A stretch of DNA of 24,461 nucleotides, from IMG/VR virus record IMGVR_UViG_3300015171_000031, positions 1 to 24,461 of that record, one strand, 5' to 3'. The stretch is from a virus. Shown here in pieces: positions 3,549 through 13,489 of this stretch. The translations under genes were made by a program, and so were the position numbers. The number at the start of each line of letters is the position of its first letter. Position 1 is the first letter of the stretch. The notes below the pieces were generated by a model, which saw only the letters and a list, made by a program, of their open reading frames with translations, was not told the DNA's origin and searched no databases.

Positions 3549-4222
3549 AATTGAAACACCGTCAAGTCCCGTTCTCCATCAAGGCCACCAAGGACGATGG
3601 CACGTTTGAGGGCTACGCCTCGGTGTTCGGCAACACCGACGCCTATCGCGACGTGGTGATGCCCGGCGCGTTCGCGCAATCGCTCGCCGACTGGAAGGCC
3701 CAGGACGCCATGCCGCCGGTCCTGTGGCAGCACAGGAGCGATCAGCCGATCGGCTTCACAACCTCGATCGCCGAGGACGGCAAGGGCCTGGCCGTCACAG
3801 GCCAGCTGCTGGTCAAGGACGTGCAGCAGGCGCGCGAGGCCTTCGCGTTCGCCAAGGCCAAGGTGGTGCGCGGCCTCTCCATCGGGTACGACCCGGTCGA
3901 GGAGGAGTACGACGGCAAGACCAACGTCAATCGGGTGATCAAGGTGGACCTGTGGGAGTATTCCTTCGCGACCTTCCCGGGCAACACCGAAGCGACCATC
4001 ACCCAGGTCAAACAATTACTGGCGGGCGGCGATCTGCCCTCGCTTTCCGAGTTCGAGGACTTTCTGCGTGAGGCAGGAAGTTTTTCCCGATCCCAAGCCA
4101 AGGCGATTGCCGGCCACGGTTTGGTGCGATTGCTAGAACAGCGTGATGCTGACAAGAGCAAACCCGACCTCGAGGTCGAGGCGATTTTGGCACTGTTCAA
4201 AGAGCATCCCATCATTCTGTAG
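3545..4222 (+). CDS. Prohead serine protease, HK97 family (peptidase U35-like)
   Basis: This protease is expected to cleave the scaffold-like N-terminus of the capsid protein during head maturation. The 225-aa protein has the family order: FEGYASVFGN near residue 22, DVVMPGAF near 36, catalytic His in WQHRSDQPIG (H63), and catalytic Ser in RGLSIGY (S112), followed by the conserved LWEYSFATFPGN segment. Its start ATG overlaps the portal stop (ATGA). The 70 or so residues after the protease core are more variable. Placement between portal and capsid is the standard HK97 order. Confidence 0.92.
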   Translation: MKLKHRQVPFSIKATKDDGTFEGYASVFGNTDAYRDVVMPGAFAQSLADWKAQDAMPPVLWQHRSDQPIGFTTSIAEDGKGLAVTGQLLVKDVQQAREAFAFAKAKVVRGLSIGYDPVEEEYDGKTNVNRVIKVDLWEYSFATFPGNTEATITQVKQLLAGGDLPSLSEFEDFLREAGSFSRSQAKAIAGHGLVRLLEQRDADKSKPDLEVEAILALFKEHPIIL

Positions 4223-4235
4223 AAGGAAAATTGCA

Positions 4236-5588
4236 ATGAGAAATCGAACCATCCGCCGCATCATCACGCGCGGCGTGATCGATATGGCGACGTCACGCAT
4301 TTTGGAATCCGAGGGCTACCTGTACGAAGGCCCGATGGCGTACGCCGACGCCCCGAGCGGCAAGGCGCTCGAAGACGCGATCAAAGCCGCGCTGGTCGAG
4401 CACGGCGCCAAGGTCAAGCAGGTGATCGACGCGGTGCAGGAGAACGTCAAGACGTTCGGCACCGTGCAGGAAGGCGTCAAGGCGGCGGTCGCCAAGCTGA
4501 ACGAGGACGGCGCGAAGATGATCGCCGACCACGAAAAGCTAAAAGCCGAGAAGATCGCGAACGATGCGCGCCTTTTGGACCTCGAGCAACGGATGCTCGG
4601 TCGCGGCCCAGGCCCAGGCGGCGGCGGGGCGGTGAAGTCTTTGGGCGAGCAGGTCATCGAGTCGGACCAGTGGAAAGAATTCGCCAGGAAGGCAAGTTCG
4701 CTGCGCTGCTCCATGATGCCCTTCAAGGTCAAGAACATCACCACCATCACCGGCGGCGCGGGTGCCTTCCCTGAGTTCCTGCCGACTCCGGTCATTCCGC
4801 CCTTCCAGCCCCTGGCGGTGCGGGATTTGCTCGACCACGGCACTACCGAGACGAACCTGATCGAGTGGGTGAAGGAAACGCTGTTCACGAACCTGGCGGC
4901 GCCGGTCTCGGAAGGCGGCCTGAAGCCGCAGTCGGATATCACCTACGATCGGGTGAGCGTGCCGGTTCGCACCATCGCGCACTGGATCAAGGCCTCGAAA
5001 CAGATCCTGGCGGACTTCAAGCAGCTGATGACGCTCATCGATGGGCGTATGCGGTTCGGCTTGAAGCTGGTCGAGGAGCGGCAGCTGCTGTACGGAGACG
5101 GCACCGGCGATAACCTGCTCGGGTTGATTCCGCAGGCCACGGCCTACACCTCGAGCGCCTTCCACCGGCCCACCGACACCCGCATCGATGTGATCCGTCA
5201 CGCGATGCTGCAGGTGAACTTGGCGTTCTATCCGGCTACAGGCATCGTCATGAGTCCGACCGACTGGCATGACCTCGAGCTGATCAAGGACAACTTCGGC
5301 CGGTACATCATCGCAAGCCCCACGCAATCGACGCCCGGCATGTTGTGGGGTCTGCCGGTCGCGCAGGCCTTTAGCATGGCGCCAGGGGAGTTCCTGGTCG
5401 GTGCGATGAAACTGTGCGCCACCCTGTTCGATCGCGAAGAAGCCCAGTTGCTCGTCAGCAACGAGGATCAGGACAACTTCGTGCGCAACTTGGTGACGGT
5501 GCTGATGGAGGAACGGATCGCGCTCGCGGTGTCACGGCCGGCGGCGCTCGTTCACGGCTTCATCCCGGCGGGCGAGAGCACGCACTAA
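4236..5588 (+). CDS. Major capsid protein, HK97 fold, with N-terminal delta/scaffold domain
   Basis: This is the main head shell subunit (450 aa). Residues about 40-125 are Ala/Lys/Glu-rich and predicted coiled coil, matching the delta (scaffold) domain removed by the upstream protease. A Gly/Pro linker (GRGPGPGGGG) follows, then a typical HK97 capsid domain with AFPEFLPTPVIPP, LIEWVKET and the segment VPVRTIAHWIKASKQILADF. The reading frame is open from 4143, but ATG 4236 is chosen because AGAAGG lies 9 nt upstream and the upstream residues belong to the overlapped protease end. The GVIDMATSRIL part near residue 14 offers an alternative ATG, judged less likely. Confidence 0.92.
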   Translation: MRNRTIRRIITRGVIDMATSRILESEGYLYEGPMAYADAPSGKALEDAIKAALVEHGAKVKQVIDAVQENVKTFGTVQEGVKAAVAKLNEDGAKMIADHEKLKAEKIANDARLLDLEQRMLGRGPGPGGGGAVKSLGEQVIESDQWKEFARKASSLRCSMMPFKVKNITTITGGAGAFPEFLPTPVIPPFQPLAVRDLLDHGTTETNLIEWVKETLFTNLAAPVSEGGLKPQSDITYDRVSVPVRTIAHWIKASKQILADFKQLMTLIDGRMRFGLKLVEERQLLYGDGTGDNLLGLIPQATAYTSSAFHRPTDTRIDVIRHAMLQVNLAFYPATGIVMSPTDWHDLELIKDNFGRYIIASPTQSTPGMLWGLPVAQAFSMAPGEFLVGAMKLCATLFDREEAQLLVSNEDQDNFVRNLVTVLMEERIALAVSRPAALVHGFIPAGESTH

Positions 5589-5653: not shown

Positions 5654-5977
5654 ATGCCACAGTGCAAAGCGTTGAAGTCATTCCACAGCGATAAGTACGG
5701 CATGATCCGCACCGGGACTCGCTTCTCATCCGAACAGGGCTATGCGCTCGAGCTAGCCACGAAAGGCCTGGTGGAGATCATCAACGCCCCTTTGGAGCCG
5801 GAGCGCAAGCAGGCCTTCACAGCAGCGCCGCTCAGCAAGGGGCCGCAGCCGTTCCCAGGTTTGGCGGACCCGCCGGGCGCTGGCGAGGCGAAACCGTTTG
5901 TGTCATTGCCAGCGGCCCAAGCCTCACAGAAGCCGACTGCACAGCCGTCAAAGCCTTCGGGAAATGCAAAACGATAG
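5654..5977 (+). CDS. Conserved-looking phage protein of unknown function (post-capsid)
   Basis: Not recognised. The 107-aa product has a compact N-terminal part (residues 1-50; ALKSFHSDKYGMIRTGTRF, then YALELATKGLVEII) and a Pro/Ala/Lys-rich tail that is probably disordered. AGGAG lies 7 nt before ATG 5654, so the start is well supported. Small proteins of this style often follow the capsid gene in HK97-like phages and may be head-associated (inference from position only). The last 30 codons overlap, in a different frame, DNA that encodes the conserved N-terminus of the following GPSL-motif protein. A heptamer CCCTTTG at 5788-5794 lies in the right phase for -1 slippage into that frame. Confidence 0.8.
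   Translation: MPQCKALKSFHSDKYGMIRTGTRFSSEQGYALELATKGLVEIINAPLEPERKQAFTAAPLSKGPQPFPGLADPPGAGEAKPFVSLPAAQASQKPTAQPSKPSGNAKR
5788..5794 (+). promoter_or_regulatory. Candidate -1 slippery heptamer (C CCT TTG)
   Basis: In the frame of the 5654-5977 gene the codons read GCC CCT TTG, giving an X XXY YYZ pattern (CCC, TTT, G). A -1 slip here would continue in the frame that encodes the GPSL-motif protein, which is open from 5695 to 6489 and has no canonical start before 6016. No convincing stimulatory hairpin was found just downstream, so the proposal is weak. A sequencing indel or a non-canonical start would explain the same observation. Confidence 0.25.
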
Positions 5978-6015
5978 TCGTCAACACGAGCTTCCGCCTG
6001 GCGCTGTGGGCCGAC

Positions 6016-6489
6016 GTGCTCTATGCGTGTGACGACTCCTGGTGGGGTACGTACTTTCCCGAGGTCGCGCGCGCCTTCCACGGCGAGAAGTGGACCATCA
6101 ACCAGAACGCCCGCGACCGCTTCGACCTGTACTGGATTCTCGGTCTCGACAATGCAGGCCTCTCGCGCGATCCGGGGATCATCCACCAAGGGCAAAACTC
6201 CGGCTATCAGGCCGTGGGCCTCGCCTACCTGTTCGGCGCGGCGCGCATCCTACTGCTCGGCTTTGATTTTGGGCGAAGCTTCGGCAAATCTCACTGGCAC
6301 GGCGACCATCCGCGCGGCCTGGGCAACGGCGGATCGTTTGCGGCGTGGTGCGCCGCCATGAACCTGCTCGCGAAGGACTTGGCCGCCGCGGGCGTCGAGG
6401 TCATCAACTGCAGCCGCATGACCGCGCTCACCTGCTTCCCGAGAATGTCGATCGAGGAGGCCCTGTGCCAGACACCGACACCATCGTGA
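6016..6489 (+). CDS. GPSL-motif protein (DUF115 / MptE-like or sugar-transfer related), start unresolved
   Basis: From GTG 6016 the product is 157 aa, but coding sequence clearly extends upstream. From 5890 the same frame reads ETVCVIASGPSLTEADC and then VVNTSFRLALWADVLYACDD, the N-terminal nucleotide-binding-type 'GPSL' segment of DUF115-like proteins that many phages carry. No ATG, GTG or TTG exists in this frame between the stop at 5692-5694 and 6016, so the true N-terminus must come from a frameshift from the previous gene, a non-canonical start, or a sequence error. Conserved-looking C-terminal parts are YQAVGLAYLFGAARILLLGF and the downstream FGKSHWHGDHP. Neighbours are two glycosyltransferase-like genes, suggesting a role in carbohydrate modification (inference). 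The stop overlaps the next small ORF (TGATG). Confidence 0.75.
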   Translation: MLYACDDSWWGTYFPEVARAFHGEKWTINQNARDRFDLYWILGLDNAGLSRDPGIIHQGQNSGYQAVGLAYLFGAARILLLGFDFGRSFGKSHWHGDHPRGLGNGGSFAAWCAAMNLLAKDLAAAGVEVINCSRMTALTCFPRMSIEEALCQTPTPS

Positions 6490-6606: not shown

Positions 6607-7236
6607 ATGCACATCATTCCTACGCGCGGCCGACCGTCCCTGATGCAGCGCTTCTTCGATGAAGGCCAGCCGCAGGAACCGGGCGTCGTGATCATCGACT
6701 CGGACCAGATCGCGCTCTATGAGCGGTTGCGAATACCGGGGCACTGGGAGCGGCTCACCGTGCCGCCGCTCTTAGGGTTCGTCGCCAAGGCCAATCGCGC
6801 GTTCGCCGCCCACCCAAACGAAGCCTGGTATGCCTGGGGCGGCGATGATGCGGTCGGGCGCACGCCGTCCTGGGACACGCGGCTCGCGCGTCTGGCGAGC
6901 GCAGGCTCGATCGCCTGGGGCAACGACCTGATGCGCGGCGGCTGCACGCACCCGTTCCTACCGGGCGACCTGTGCCGCGCGTTTGGTTGGGTCGCACACC
7001 CGGCCTTCAAGCACCTGTACATTGATCAGATTTGGGAGCACGTCGCGCGCCAGACCGGCATCGCGCGCTATCTGCCGAACGTGATCCAAGAGGCACACCA
7101 CTTTTCAAACAACAAGCTCGCGCGCGACCGGACCTCGTACGAACGGATGGAGACCGCCGACCACGCGACGTTCCTCAAGCTCGACCTGACTGAATTGATG
7201 GACAAGGCCCGCCTGTGCGTATCTTCACGGTCTTGA
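6607..7236 (+). CDS. GT-A-like glycosyltransferase family protein
   Basis: The 209-aa product begins HIIPTRGRPSLMQRFFDEG, the 'PTRGRP' N-terminus often seen in phage GT-A-like proteins. It has an acidic GGDDAVGR motif (D80, D81) after WYAWGG, matching the position of the metal-binding DxD of glycosyltransferase family 2-like folds. Residues about 115-145 (HPFLPGDLCRAFGWVAHP) resemble the acceptor-side region of such proteins. The expected role is transfer of a sugar to phage structural proteins or another acceptor, in the cytoplasm. It sits between a GPSL protein and a second DxD protein. The assignment rests on motifs only; substrate and activity are unknown. Confidence 0.72.
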   Translation: MHIIPTRGRPSLMQRFFDEGQPQEPGVVIIDSDQIALYERLRIPGHWERLTVPPLLGFVAKANRAFAAHPNEAWYAWGGDDAVGRTPSWDTRLARLASAGSIAWGNDLMRGGCTHPFLPGDLCRAFGWVAHPAFKHLYIDQIWEHVARQTGIARYLPNVIQEAHHFSNNKLARDRTSYERMETADHATFLKLDLTELMDKARLCVSSRS

Positions 7237-7847
7237 GGACTGGCGGGGAGTACCTGCCGCTGCATGTCCAGGCGCTCAAGCGCCAGATCGATGAGCACCT
7301 GGCGCAGCACGAGTTCGTGTGCCTATCGGACGTGCCGGTTCCAGGCGTCGAGTGCATTCCGTTGAATTACGACTGGCCGGGGTGGTGGTCGAAGCTCGAG
7401 CTGTTCAGGCCGGACCTGCGCGGCACCATCCTCTTTTTTGACCTGGACACCGTCATCGTCGGGCCGCTCGAGCAGATCGCGGCGGTGACGCGCCTGACGC
7501 TCCTGCGGGACTTCTATCGCGACGGGGCGCCGGGCCACCAGTCCGAGGGCCTGGGCAGCGGCTTGATGTTGCTGCCCGAGGCCGATCGGATGATGCCGTG
7601 GATCGAATGGTCGCGCGATCCCCGCGCAGTCATGGCGCGGTGTCCAGGCGGCGATCAGCGGTTTCTGGAAGGCATCTACTTCCACCGGGCAGACCGCTGG
7701 CAGGACGTCGTCGAGGGCGTCGTCAGCTGGAAAGTCCACAGCCGCCAGGACACCTTGCCGAAGGGGGCCAGGGTCGTCTGTTTCCACGGCCAGCCCCGCC
7801 CCTGGGCAGTGAAGCGCTTTCAAACCCTGTACGCGGCGGCGCCATGA
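7215..7847 (+). CDS. Glycosyltransferase-like protein (GT8-type DxD)
   Basis: This 210-aa protein opens with MRIFTVLRTGGEYLPLHVQA and carries WWSKLELFRPDLRGTILFFD followed by LDTV, giving a clear DxD (D76, D78). That arrangement (WxSKLELF then FFDLDTV) is typical of GT8-like and related sugar transferases found in phages. A GGDQRFLEG motif near residue 154 and VVCFHGQPRPW near the end complete the family-like pattern. GTG 7215 is used, overlapping the previous gene by 22 nt. It probably works with the neighbouring GT-A-like and GPSL proteins. The acceptor is unknown; head or tail proteins are a guess from position. Confidence 0.78.
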   Translation: MRIFTVLRTGGEYLPLHVQALKRQIDEHLAQHEFVCLSDVPVPGVECIPLNYDWPGWWSKLELFRPDLRGTILFFDLDTVIVGPLEQIAAVTRLTLLRDFYRDGAPGHQSEGLGSGLMLLPEADRMMPWIEWSRDPRAVMARCPGGDQRFLEGIYFHRADRWQDVVEGVVSWKVHSRQDTLPKGARVVCFHGQPRPWAVKRFQTLYAAAP

Positions 7848-7939
7848 CGCGGCTGTTCCACGGGGAACGATCGAGGCTATTTACCGGAGGATCGCGCCCG
7901 TTGGCGTATATTCCGGCCAACTGCAGGAGTTCCTCATGA
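7844..7939 (+). CDS. Possible 31-aa micro-ORF bridging to the connector gene
   Basis: ATG 7844 overlaps the preceding stop (ATGA), and its TGA (7937-7939) overlaps the ATG at 7936 of the next gene. The predicted peptide (MTRLFHGERSRLFTGG and on to PANCRSSS) has no recognisable feature. It could simply be a chance frame in the 88-nt gap, which also carries the Shine-Dalgarno AGGAG for the next gene at 7925-7929. It is listed only because both ends show the overlap style used throughout this operon. Confidence 0.2.
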   Translation: MTRLFHGERSRLFTGGSRPLAYIPANCRSSS

Positions 7940-9892: not shown

Positions 9893-10330
9893 ATGCCAAC
9901 TCCGAATCCCTTGACAACGCCCTTCGTGGGCAAAATCTTCTGGGCCGTGGGCGATGGCGCCTCGCCGGAAGTGTATACGCGCTACTGCGAGGTCGACGCC
10001 ATGAGCGGCATCGGCTCCGCCAACGCGCTGATCGACGTGACCACCTTCTGCTCGAACGGGTTCAAGGAATATATCCCTGGCCTGGCGGACGGCAAGCAGG
10101 TCACGATCGGGGCCAACTACGTGATGGGCGAGGCGGTTCAGGAAAGCCTGATCACCGACGTCGAGAACAAGACGAAGCGTAATTTTGAAGTGCAGATCGA
10201 CGGCGACTCGCCGTTTCGGCTGTTCAAGCTCACGCTCGCCATGCTCGACTGGGAATTGGACCCCCAGGTCGCCAAGCAGAACGTCATCAAGTTCGTGGGC
10301 AAAATCACAGGGCCGATCGTGCGGTCATGA
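9893..10330 (+). CDS. Major tail tube protein
   Basis: The 145-aa product is likely the repeating tail tube subunit. Sequence features are PFVGKIFWAVGDGASPEVYT, EVDAMSGIGSANALIDVTTF, EYIPGLADGKQVTIGANYVM, and a C-terminal half with FEVQIDGDSPFRLFKLTLAM, consistent with the beta-sandwich tube proteins of siphophages. A TTG six bases upstream is in frame, but GGAGG (9881-9885) fits ATG 9893 best. It lies between the completion protein and the tail chaperone, the standard position. Confidence 0.82.
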   Translation: MPTPNPLTTPFVGKIFWAVGDGASPEVYTRYCEVDAMSGIGSANALIDVTTFCSNGFKEYIPGLADGKQVTIGANYVMGEAVQESLITDVENKTKRNFEVQIDGDSPFRLFKLTLAMLDWELDPQVAKQNVIKFVGKITGPIVRS

Positions 10331-10602
10331 GCGGACTGATCGAGAGCACGGTTTCGGTTCGGGGTACGGTGTACACGGTGCGGGAAATCAGCGGGCGGCA
10401 CATGCGCGAGGTCAGGAAGCGCTTGAAGGATTCCCCGGAGACGGTCGAGGCGTATCTAGCCTGGGCCTGCACGGTCGATCCAAAGTTCGCCTCAGAACAG
10501 GCGGCGGCCGACGAATCGCATCTGGTGCTGAAGCTCTTGAGCGAGGAAGCGTTTCGCCTCTCGACGGCGGTGCCGGCCGAAGGCGAAGCAAAAAACGACT
10601 GA
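10327..10602 (+). CDS. Tail assembly chaperone, short form (lambda gpG-like)
   Basis: The 91-aa product (LIESTVSVRGTVYTVREISG, then RHMREVRKRLKDSPETVEAY) matches the short tail assembly chaperones found between tail tube and tape measure genes. The zero-frame stop TGA (10600-10602) lies just past an A AAA AAC heptamer. Most ribosomes should stop here, giving the G-like form; a minority shift to make the longer GT-like form. The start overlaps the tube stop (ATGA). Confidence 0.87.
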   Translation: MSGLIESTVSVRGTVYTVREISGRHMREVRKRLKDSPETVEAYLAWACTVDPKFASEQAAADESHLVLKLLSEEAFRLSTAVPAEGEAKND

Positions 10603-10937
10603 CGCCCGAGCAGCTATTCGAGCATCGGCTCGCGGCACTGCTCGGGCGTTCGTTGCAGGAACTCGACGAACTGCCGGCGCGTGAGCTGGAGCGCTGGGCG
10701 CGGTATTGGACCGAGGAGCCGTGGGGCACGATGCGTGACAACATGCACGCGGGCCTGATCATTTCGGAGCTGCTCAAGCCGCACTTGCCAGAGGGCGTAA
10801 CCATGTCGATCGAACAGTACATGTTGAGGCCGAAGGCCGATCTGGATGAAGCCGCGCGCGCAAGGTTCATCGCGACCTTGAGCGCCGAGGCGGCCCGCTC
10901 GGAACGGGCGGCGCGACGCAAAGTGCGGATGCCATGA
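10327..10937 (+). CDS. Tail assembly chaperone, -1 frameshift product (lambda gpGT-like)
   Basis: After the A AAA AAC heptamer (10590-10596) a -1 shift continues as KKRLTPEQLFEHRLAALLGR and on to AARRKVRMP, stopping at 10935-10937. The fusion would be 203 aa: 90 from the G part and 113 new. The -1 frame has no start codon of its own next to the junction. Its product has the character of the T domain (PEEPWGTMRDN-like segment YWTEEPWGTMRDNMHAGLII). The stop overlaps the tape measure ATG. In lambda and many siphophages this GT form binds the tape measure during tail assembly. The frameshift itself is inferred from the signal, not measured. Confidence 0.88.
10590..10649 (+). promoter_or_regulatory. 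-1 ribosomal frameshift signal: A AAA AAC plus 12-bp stem-loop
   Basis: The slippery heptamer A AAA AAC occupies 10590-10596 in correct phase (codons GCA AAA AAC). Five bases later begins a perfect 12-bp stem: 10602-10613 pairs with 10638-10649, and a G-U pair (10601/10650) could extend it. The 24-nt loop itself contains a smaller hairpin (10619-10623 with 10628-10632). The spacing is what a bacterial -1 stimulatory structure requires. Confidence 0.88.
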
Positions 10938-13489
10938 CCGATCTTGCCAGCCTCGTCGTCCGCATGCAGGCTGACAACAGCCAGTACATCAAGGCGCTCG
11001 ATCAGGCCAACAGCCGACTCCAACACTTCGCGCACCAGCAGGAAGAAGAATTCGATCAGCTGAAAGAGGGGTTTGCCAAACTCGGTGAGACGCTGATCGA
11101 GGCCTTCGCCGTTGAAAAGATTGTCGAGTTCGGGGTCTCGACCATCGAGTCGCTCGCGTCGCTCGATAAAATGTCGCAAAGCGCTGGCATCGCGGTCGAG
11201 GAACTGTCCTCGCTCAGACTCGCGTTCGCCGCCGGCGGTGTCTCGCAGGAGGAAATGGGCGTTGCGCTCAAGAAGCTCAACGTATCGCTCTCCGAAGCCG
11301 CAGGCAGCGCCACCAGCAAGGCGGGCGTCGCCTTTCGCGCCCTCGGGATCGAGGTCAAGAATTCCGATGGCAGCTTAAAGTCGCTCGACAAACTCCTGCC
11401 GGAAATCGCCACCAAGTTCAAGGACTCCGCGGACGGTCCCAACAAGGTTGCCATCGCCGTGGCGCTGATGGGCAAAGCCGGGCAGCAGATGATCCCGGTG
11501 CTGAACGAGGGCGCTGACGGCCTCGACAAAATCAGGAAGTCGGCCGAGGACGCGGGTCTGGTCATCGATGAAAAACTCGCGAAATCAGCCGAGGAGGCGT
11601 CGCGGAAATTTATCATCTTGAAAACGCAGATCGTGGACGGGTTCGGCGCGCAGCTGGCGAGCAGGCTCCTGCCCTCGCTCAACGACTTCGAGGATGCGCT
11701 CTCGAAGGGCGCGGGCAAGATGGAGTTCCTGGGCAACGCGGCCGACGTCGTCGTGGGAATTTTGAAAACGATGGTCGTGGTGCCGACCGTGATCCTCGGG
11801 TCGCTGGCGGCCCTGGGCGATGCGCTGAACGGGATCGGCAAGGCGTTCTATGACCTCGGGACGCTGAACTTTCTGAAAAATGGCTCCGACCTCACGGACG
11901 GGTTGAGTGCCGCCTGGCAGCGGCTCAAGTCGACGTTCGGGTTCGCGCACGACACGGTCATGGCGGGCCTGAAGGATGAGAAAAAAGGCGTCGATGAATT
12001 GGCGGAGGCGGTCAACGAGCACGCGAAGCTGGAACTGCCGAGCATCAAAGGGATCGAGGAGATCGACAAGGCCGATGCCAAACTCAAGGCGTTCTCGGAA
12101 GGCCTCAAGGAACAGGTGCTCGCGTTCGGGTTGGGCGGCGCGGCGGCGGTCAAGTTCAAACTGCAGACGGGTCAGCTCGCCGACGATTTTAAAAATGCGA
12201 GTGCCGAGGGCAAGAAGGCAGCGGCGGCGGCCATCGAATACGCCGTGGCCCTCGAAACCAAAAAAGACACCAAGACGGTCACCAACTACACCGACAACCT
12301 AGTCAAGCAGATCACGGCGCTCGAGGCCGGGTCGCTGGCCCAGGAGAACTACGCCCTGCACTCGGGAGCACTCGGCGAAGCGCTCGACCGGCTCGGCAAG
12401 AAAGGCGACGCCTATCGCGAATCGATCATGAAGGCCAAGGCCATCCTGGTCGATGACCAAGACGCCAAGGCCGTGCAGGCGCTGAGTGATAAATCGGATG
12501 TGCTGGCGGGGCGCTTGAACAAGGCGGCGCTCGCGGCGTTCGACCTGCAGTACCGGCTGCTGAAAACGAACCTGACCGCGGCCGGGGATCAGCAAGGCCT
12601 TGAGCAGCTGGCGACCGAGCGCGCGCACATCGATGCGCTCTCGAAGATCAATGAACTGAATTTGCACGCGGCAGAGATTCAGACAGACCTCGCCACCGCC
12701 GAGTCGAAAATCTCCCTGGCGCGCGCCCAAGGCCAGATCAGCGATATTCAGGCGGGCAATCAGGAAGCCGCCGTGCGCTCGCACGCCATCGATCAGCTCG
12801 ATCAAATCTACGCGCGGGAAAAGGATATTGCGGCGGGCGCGAACGATCCGGCGCTGGTCGATGGGGTGAAGAAATTCGGCGTCCAGATCGACGGCCTCAA
12901 AGTGCAGATGACCCAATTCGACAGCCAGGTCCGCCAGGGCCTCGAGGGCGCGTTCGCCCACAACTTCGCGGACTTGATCAACGGGGCCAAGTCGTTCAAG
13001 CAGGCGATCCTCGGGTTCCTGCAGGATATCGACAAGCAGTTCGTCGACATGATCGCGAAGGACTACGCGCAGAAGCTGTTCGCGGGCGCATCGGGTTCCT
13101 CATCGGGCGGCGCGTTGGGCGGGCTGTCAGGATTGCTCGGCGGCCTCCTGGGCGGCGGCGGTGCGGCGACCTCGGTGGCGGCCACGGGTGCGGGGGCGGT
13201 GGGCGGGGACACCGGAGCGCTCGCCAGCACCATCATCCCGGCGTTCGCTTCGGGCGGCACGTTGGATGCGGGCAAGGTCGGCATGGTCGGAGAGTCCGGC
13301 CCGGAGTATGTCTATTCCGGCTCGCAGAACATGAACGTGGTTCCCGCCGGCGGCGGCAAGCAGGTGAGCGTGACCAACCATTTCACCATCCAGGCTCCTG
13401 GCGGGACGATTAGCCGCGCATCGCAAATGCAGACGGCGGCGGCGGCCGCGCGCTCGCTCTCCCAGGCCAACAGGCGCAACAACACATGA
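10934..13489 (+). CDS. Tail tape measure protein
   Basis: At 851 aa this is the longest of the tail shaft genes and sets tail length; at roughly 0.15 nm per residue a tail of about 130 nm is predicted. N-terminal residues 1-60 (LASLVVRMQADNSQYIKALD) are typical of tape measures, followed by long helical and coiled-coil segments. A hydrophobic stretch near residues 270-300 (VVVGILKTMVVVPTVILGSL) could be membrane-inserting at DNA ejection. The C-terminus has a Gly-rich linker (about 715-770), then KVGMVGESGPEYVY and a 'VVPAGG' motif, the classic tape measure tail end. Start and stop overlap neighbours (ATGA). Confidence 0.93.
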   Translation: MTDLASLVVRMQADNSQYIKALDQANSRLQHFAHQQEEEFDQLKEGFAKLGETLIEAFAVEKIVEFGVSTIESLASLDKMSQSAGIAVEELSSLRLAFAAGGVSQEEMGVALKKLNVSLSEAAGSATSKAGVAFRALGIEVKNSDGSLKSLDKLLPEIATKFKDSADGPNKVAIAVALMGKAGQQMIPVLNEGADGLDKIRKSAEDAGLVIDEKLAKSAEEASRKFIILKTQIVDGFGAQLASRLLPSLNDFEDALSKGAGKMEFLGNAADVVVGILKTMVVVPTVILGSLAALGDALNGIGKAFYDLGTLNFLKNGSDLTDGLSAAWQRLKSTFGFAHDTVMAGLKDEKKGVDELAEAVNEHAKLELPSIKGIEEIDKADAKLKAFSEGLKEQVLAFGLGGAAAVKFKLQTGQLADDFKNASAEGKKAAAAAIEYAVALETKKDTKTVTNYTDNLVKQITALEAGSLAQENYALHSGALGEALDRLGKKGDAYRESIMKAKAILVDDQDAKAVQALSDKSDVLAGRLNKAALAAFDLQYRLLKTNLTAAGDQQGLEQLATERAHIDALSKINELNLHAAEIQTDLATAESKISLARAQGQISDIQAGNQEAAVRSHAIDQLDQIYAREKDIAAGANDPALVDGVKKFGVQIDGLKVQMTQFDSQVRQGLEGAFAHNFADLINGAKSFKQAILGFLQDIDKQFVDMIAKDYAQKLFAGASGSSSGGALGGLSGLLGGLLGGGGAATSVAATGAGAVGGDTGALASTIIPAFASGGTLDAGKVGMVGESGPEYVYSGSQNMNVVPAGGGKQVSVTNHFTIQAPGGTISRASQMQTAAAAARSLSQANRRNNT

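Follow-up and report, generated by a model that had tools for sequence, protein, structure and literature searches.

Programmed frameshifting in the structural genes of tailed phages is already known. In the G/GT tail-assembly-chaperone genes of lambda, HK97 and most tailed phages, ribosomes slip by −1 shortly before the small gene ends, at a heptamer of the form X_XXY_YYZ (PMC5009743, PMC3483164), and in gene 10 of T3 and T7, in Listeria phages A118, A500 and PSA and in Lactobacillus phage A2, frameshifting gives a fraction of the head protein a C-terminal domain (PMC5009743). Lambda gpFI binds the major capsid protein and head lattice and aids terminase docking (PMC4856287, PMC7889075, PMC3224144), and for TP901-1 a −1 frameshift joining the coat protein to a gpFI-like protein has been suggested, although Western blotting did not show such a fusion (PMC4493119).

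Here we analyze a virus record from IMG/VR (IMGVR_UViG_3300015171_000031, positions 1 to 24,461; the whole stretch of 24,461 nucleotides is hereafter the window), in which the small gene that directly follows the major capsid gene overlaps a longer frame with a GPSL motif and no start codon of its own. Comparison of this locus with its relatives indicates that the two very probably form a single programmed −1 ribosomal frameshifting unit, with an adaptor as one product and an adaptor-enzyme fusion as the other. We found no published report of such an adaptor-GPSL frameshift in the open-access literature.

Organization of the locus

The GPSL frame, on the plus strand, is open from 5695 to a stop that ends at 6489, and encodes ETVCVIASGPSLTEADC from 5890. 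Re-reading of this frame bore out the initial annotation: the earliest ATG, GTG or TTG is GTG 6016, which lies 3′ of the GPSL motif, and ATT 5905 and CTG 5998 are in frame. The small post-capsid gene, with its ATG at 5654 and AGGAG upstream, overlaps the GPSL frame such that a −1 slip from it enters that frame, and the annotated C_CCT_TTG is indeed in phase; no other in-phase X_XXY_YYZ occurs from 5695 up to the motif, a second one in the small gene, G_GGA_AAT at 5959, being located 3′ of the motif. The Shine-Dalgarno-like GGTGGAG ahead of the heptamer doubles as coding sequence for a conserved LVE. An Rfam scan of the window gave no match.

Table 1 Features of the head-module overlap and its surroundings in the window.
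Feature	Coordinates	Strand	Remarks
Major capsid protein gene	4143..5588	+	longest possible start; HK97-type; PF05065 5e-44; PHROG 10 major head protein 8e-63
Small post-capsid gene, zero frame	5654..5977	+	107 aa; gpFI-C-like domain at about residues 1-44 (predicted); basic Pro/Ala/Ser-rich tail
GGTGGAG, Shine-Dalgarno-like	5770..5776	+	11 nt 5′ of the heptamer; from sequence; possible stimulator, weak
C_CCT_TTG, best −1 slip-site candidate	5788..5794	+	in phase; sole heptamer 5′ of the motif; counterpart in L005
−1 frame: linker, then Maf/GT42-like domain (PHROG 4603 'alpha-2,3-sialyltransferase')	5794..6489	+	without own start codon
C_CCA_GGT, weaker alternative slip site	5854..5860	+	aligns with G_GGA_AAA of L003/L004
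Possible stem, arms 5878-5886 (CGCTGGCGA) and 5906-5914 (TTGCCAGCG)	5878..5914	+	9 bp

Start codons in relatives

Relatives were gathered by tblastn and by back-translated searches and comprised phage D3 and other phages, 54 and 80 viral contigs, and 24 bacterial contigs; nearer relatives were also sought through the small protein or the slip-site DNA, which recovered only the contig of locus L003. The GPSL domain was located by profile in 164 loci, and clustering at 70% identity gave 102 clusters, 100 of which were used. In class A (55 clusters), an ORF in the frame one base ahead traverses the start of the domain, and wherever this upstream ORF was read, it is a small post-capsid-type gene; in class B (45 clusters), there is no such ORF.

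Absence of a start codon, which the initial annotation had suggested should be sought among relatives, is a conserved trait of the overlap: 49 of the 55 class A loci lack one in the 30 codons next to the domain, 42 of them throughout the open frame. Relatives with a normal start, which had been named as evidence against the reading, do exist, with six class A loci among them, but such starts are typical only where the overlap is absent (42 of 45 class B loci have one near the domain). The start-less exceptions in class B (L052, L068 and L071) resemble class A apart from a shortened overlap or the edge of a contig; with these three moved to class A, a post hoc reassignment made when the data had already been seen, start-less loci number 51/57 vs. 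0/42 (99 loci in the tree). Five loci (L015, L040, L043, L044 and L051) have only 5 to 11 open GPSL-frame codons 5′ of the domain and are still start-less, so that a slip there would be confined to a short stretch. The earlier impression that a Pro/Ala/Ser-rich tail overlapping the GPSL frame recurs in other phages was correct.

On the tree of the GPSL domain, at least 19 switches between the two architectures are required, of which 8 are imposed by well-supported branches; the overlap class has been gained or lost repeatedly. Six independent pairs could be taken on supported branches; in 4.8 of them the start codon is lost in step with the architecture, and in none does the association run the other way (p = 0.06; p = 0.05 is unreachable with so few pairs), and presence of the heptamer shows no clear tracking of the architecture.

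Some loci depart from the common layout. In L019, L020 and L022-L024, a different gene precedes the GPSL domain, which overlaps that gene briefly and starts with GTG (VSDWVVIASGPSL); the domain thus moves around the head module as a standalone gene. P1 pmgO (L057) and PAJU2 ORF010 (L058) have the same domain, placed elsewhere and with ordinary start codons; a CRISPRi screen scored pmgO as non-essential, and pmgN, which overlaps it, as essential (PMC10695390). The PAJU2 and Eowyn records label the GPSL-domain protein 'structural'.

In-phase slip sites

In class A, an in-phase X_XXY_YYZ heptamer with YYY = AAA or TTT was identified in 32 of the 55 loci, compared to 2 and 3 loci for the other phases in the same windows, and 500 shuffles of the upstream codons yielded 3.9 ± 1.8 loci with a heptamer (maximum 9). 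The commonest are G_GGA_AAA, C_CCT_TTG, G_GGA_AAC, A_AAA_AAG and C_CCA_AAG. CCCTTTG, which the initial annotation had proposed to look for in relatives, is among these. Among the 23 heptamer-less class A loci, 18 have an in-phase shifty tetramer between codons −19 and −11 (other phases, 5 and 5; shuffles, 7.8 ± 2.1; class B, 6/45), in a comparison devised after these loci had been inspected; the tetramer set (C_CCY, T_TTY and A_AAR) consists of motifs measured as shifty in E. coli, with strengths taken from PMC4066793. No perfect heptamer of any kind is present in 15 of the 55 class A loci.

The genome-wide background of in-phase heptamers with YYY = AAA or TTT is about 7 per 5,576 codons, that is, about 0.08 expected in 65 codons. 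C_CCT_TTG in this window, taken alone, could be due to chance; the slip-site pattern of the family is far beyond chance.

Candidate slip site in this window

C_CCT_TTG is listed as shifty in E. coli (PMC4066793). EPxRxQxFxxAP is conserved in the zero frame of the near relatives, and in most of them an A-rich site follows directly; in L003 and L004, the candidate site, G_GGA_AAA, is located slightly later. The window and L005 both lack the A-rich site and share C_CCT_TT(G/A) at codon 46 (C_CCT_TTA in L005), which makes 5788-5794 the best candidate. Given that frameshifting happens, this heptamer is probably the site used here, although the identity of the site in this phage is less certain than the frameshift mechanism.

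A slip nearer the domain, at C_CCA_GGT (5854) or C_CCG_CCG (5869), would fit the alignment of the first of these with the G_GGA_AAA of the nearest kin (Table 1), the 9-bp stem behind them and the conservation of the zero frame past 5794. We consider such a site possible but rather unlikely, because C_CCA and C_CCG shift poorly in E. coli (PMC4066793) and because L005, which likewise lacks the A-rich site, has C_CCT_TTA at codon 46; conservation of the zero frame past 5794 is, moreover, compatible with a slip at C_CCT_TTG, given that most ribosomes stay in the zero frame. The stem resembles stems close behind the slip site in several relatives (11 bp in L119, 15 bp in L128) and is too distant from 5794 to act there, and the sequence behind the heptamer of the window shows no fold of unusual stability (z = −0.15). 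Stems occur in a subset of class A, with a modest difference from class B (p = 0.01-0.03, without G+C correction), a comparison that carries no weight in our conclusions.

Frame of constraint and origin of the GPSL product

When relatives are compared two by two, the differences that fall in codons −30 to −20 before GPSL peak at the third position of the zero frame (46%), and from codon −14 onward they peak at the third position of the GPSL frame (46-49%; 52% beyond the overlap). Thus, the reading frame changes between about −30 and −14 on average, a result for the pooled relatives rather than for the window alone.

The segment translated in the GPSL frame as GRWxGxTVVCIASGPSL is conserved, and this bears on whether the GPSL protein has a non-canonical start of its own (ATT/ATC in 'CIAS', or CTG 5998), perhaps coupled to the upstream gene. 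Most loci do have an Ile codon ATT/ATC at that place, as would be expected anyway from a residue of the conserved motif. Initiation at the Ile codon is disfavoured because GRWxGxTV, located 5′ of it, is conserved in the GPSL frame; L051 has no ATT, ATC, ATA or CTG there, a start at CTG 5998 would remove the GPSL motif, and the in-phase slip sites would be left unexplained. The rare start (ATT 5905 or CTG 5998) that the initial annotation had listed as an option is, accordingly, improbable.

Transcriptional slippage in place of ribosomal frameshifting would suit the A runs found at the site in L008, L009, L010 and L044, and is conceivable for such sites only, because C_CCT_TTG, G_GGA_AAA, G_GGA_AAC and C_CCA_AAG, which are not long homopolymers, occupy the same place in other loci; as an account of this locus it is very improbable.

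Least credible of all is that sequencing or assembly introduced an indel into this contig, or that the gene has decayed: the virus record is metagenome-derived, and a near-identical copy was sought as a check and none was found, but the same start-less overlap is conserved in dozens of diverged, independent loci, including isolate genomes (D3 and relatives), which excludes an indel or pseudogene as the general cause. In one other contig, that of L050, the small gene is in another frame relative to the GPSL frame although the locus is close to L043 and L047, which suggests an indel there.

Predicted folds of the two domains

The small domain was modeled with a pLDDT of 87.5. Its profile matches the lambda gpFI C-terminal family remotely (probability 93, E = 2.7e-7, 29 columns), and the model superposes on 2lsm with Z = 5.7 (1.4 Å over 43 residues, 28% identity), a score that GINS and L9 domains tie. 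Preference for gpFI over GINS and L9 comes from the position of the gene directly after the major capsid gene, so that the assignment is partly contextual; the small protein is probably a gpFI-like, head- or capsid-binding adaptor.

The model of the GPSL domain (pLDDT 94.8) matches Maf glycosyltransferase 5mu5 (Z = 17.2 over 190 residues), MptE 8sd5 (Z = 12.5) and CstII 1ro8 (Z = 12.0), and indicates a Maf/GT42 sialyltransferase fold, with sugar-transferase activity putative. PF01973 gives a weak match in 58 of 67 members (for the protein of the window, 29.6 bits, under the gathering cut-off of 34.6), and the GPS motif, N47 and H150 are conserved. Two glycosyltransferase-like genes (6607-7236 and 7215-7847; PHROG 14945 and 1962) separate the GPSL gene from that of the head-tail connector, at 7936, and form a sugar-enzyme cluster inside the head module.

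Proposed mechanism and implications

The initial annotation had included among its options a frameshift fusion of the GPSL protein to the small post-capsid protein, and this option is strongly supported by the recurrent start-less overlap and the in-phase heptamers. In the proposed −1 frameshifting, most ribosomes would read 5654-5977 and produce the 107-aa protein, in which a basic tail follows a gpFI-C-like domain that probably binds the capsid, and some would move back by one base, with C_CCT_TTG (5788-5794) as the most likely place, and read on to 6489. The slip product would be a 278-aa fusion (29.8 kDa) of the N-terminal adaptor domain with the Maf/GT42 (sialyltransferase-like) domain. 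The slip would fix the ratio of adaptor to adaptor-enzyme, and the fusion would probably carry the enzyme-like domain to the prohead lattice, with a possible transferase activity, perhaps exerted together with the glycosyltransferase-like genes at 6607-7847.

The same overlap is present in Pseudomonas phage D3, between orf6.5 and orf7, with C_CCA_AAG at 5837-5843 and a predicted fusion of 239 aa (26.5 kDa). There, orf7 is annotated as a separate gene from 5951, 3′ of the motif; in close relatives of D3 its start is placed further in or the gene is unannotated, and none of six D3-like records has a joined gene. The frameshift arrangement would explain why, in the D3-like phages inspected, the 'alpha-2,3-sialyltransferase' gene has inconsistent and truncated starts or is missed, with the most conserved motif cut off. 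Term searches of the D3 capsid paper (PMC12749128) turned up no reference to these genes. D3 is a laboratory phage whose capsid structures are known, and the role of this unstudied, enzyme-like phage family, apparently tied to the capsid, is testable in that phage, as is the logic of adaptor vs. adaptor-enzyme.

More speculatively, the frameshift might be a widespread, unannotated feature of head modules by which a small amount of a sugar-transferase-like domain reaches the prohead, attached to a gpFI-like adaptor. Phages with this arrangement would then modify their own capsid, or a packaging partner, at a fixed ratio, perhaps by glycosylation, and phages with the domain elsewhere would make it as a free protein; we regard this broader picture as tentative, and somewhat doubtful as a whole.

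Comparison with known systems

The GPSL domain has the fold of the Maf flagellin glycosyltransferase, the GT42 sialyltransferase CstII and MptE, and shares the GPSL motif; unlike them, it is minimal and single, is borne on the putative capsid-adaptor domain and scores below the Pfam gathering threshold. The small gene resembles that of lambda gpFI, a DNA packaging chaperone, in directly following the capsid gene, and here the gpFI-C-like domain is N-terminal, without the N-terminal half of gpFI. To our knowledge, no frameshift occurs in lambda FI.

The window also contains a likely tail-assembly-chaperone frameshift pair located before the tape measure gene (10934-13489), namely 10327-10602 and an overlapping −1 frame to 10937, with A_AAA_AAC (10590-10596) in phase just 5′ of the zero-frame stop; the 91-aa protein of 10327-10602 has no family match. 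The GPSL locus shares with G/GT a minor extended product, here predicted, from an overlapping start-less frame. Unlike G/GT, which precedes the tape measure gene, it is in the head module directly after the capsid gene, its domains are unrelated, and the extension is a whole enzyme-like domain. With the present locus, the head module of tailed phages would gain a programmed frameshift of broad conservation, alongside that of the tail chaperones. It differs also from the frameshifts of T3/T7, A118/A500/PSA and A2, in which it is the major coat protein that is lengthened, often by an Ig-like domain, whereas here a separate small post-capsid protein would be extended with a GT42-like domain.
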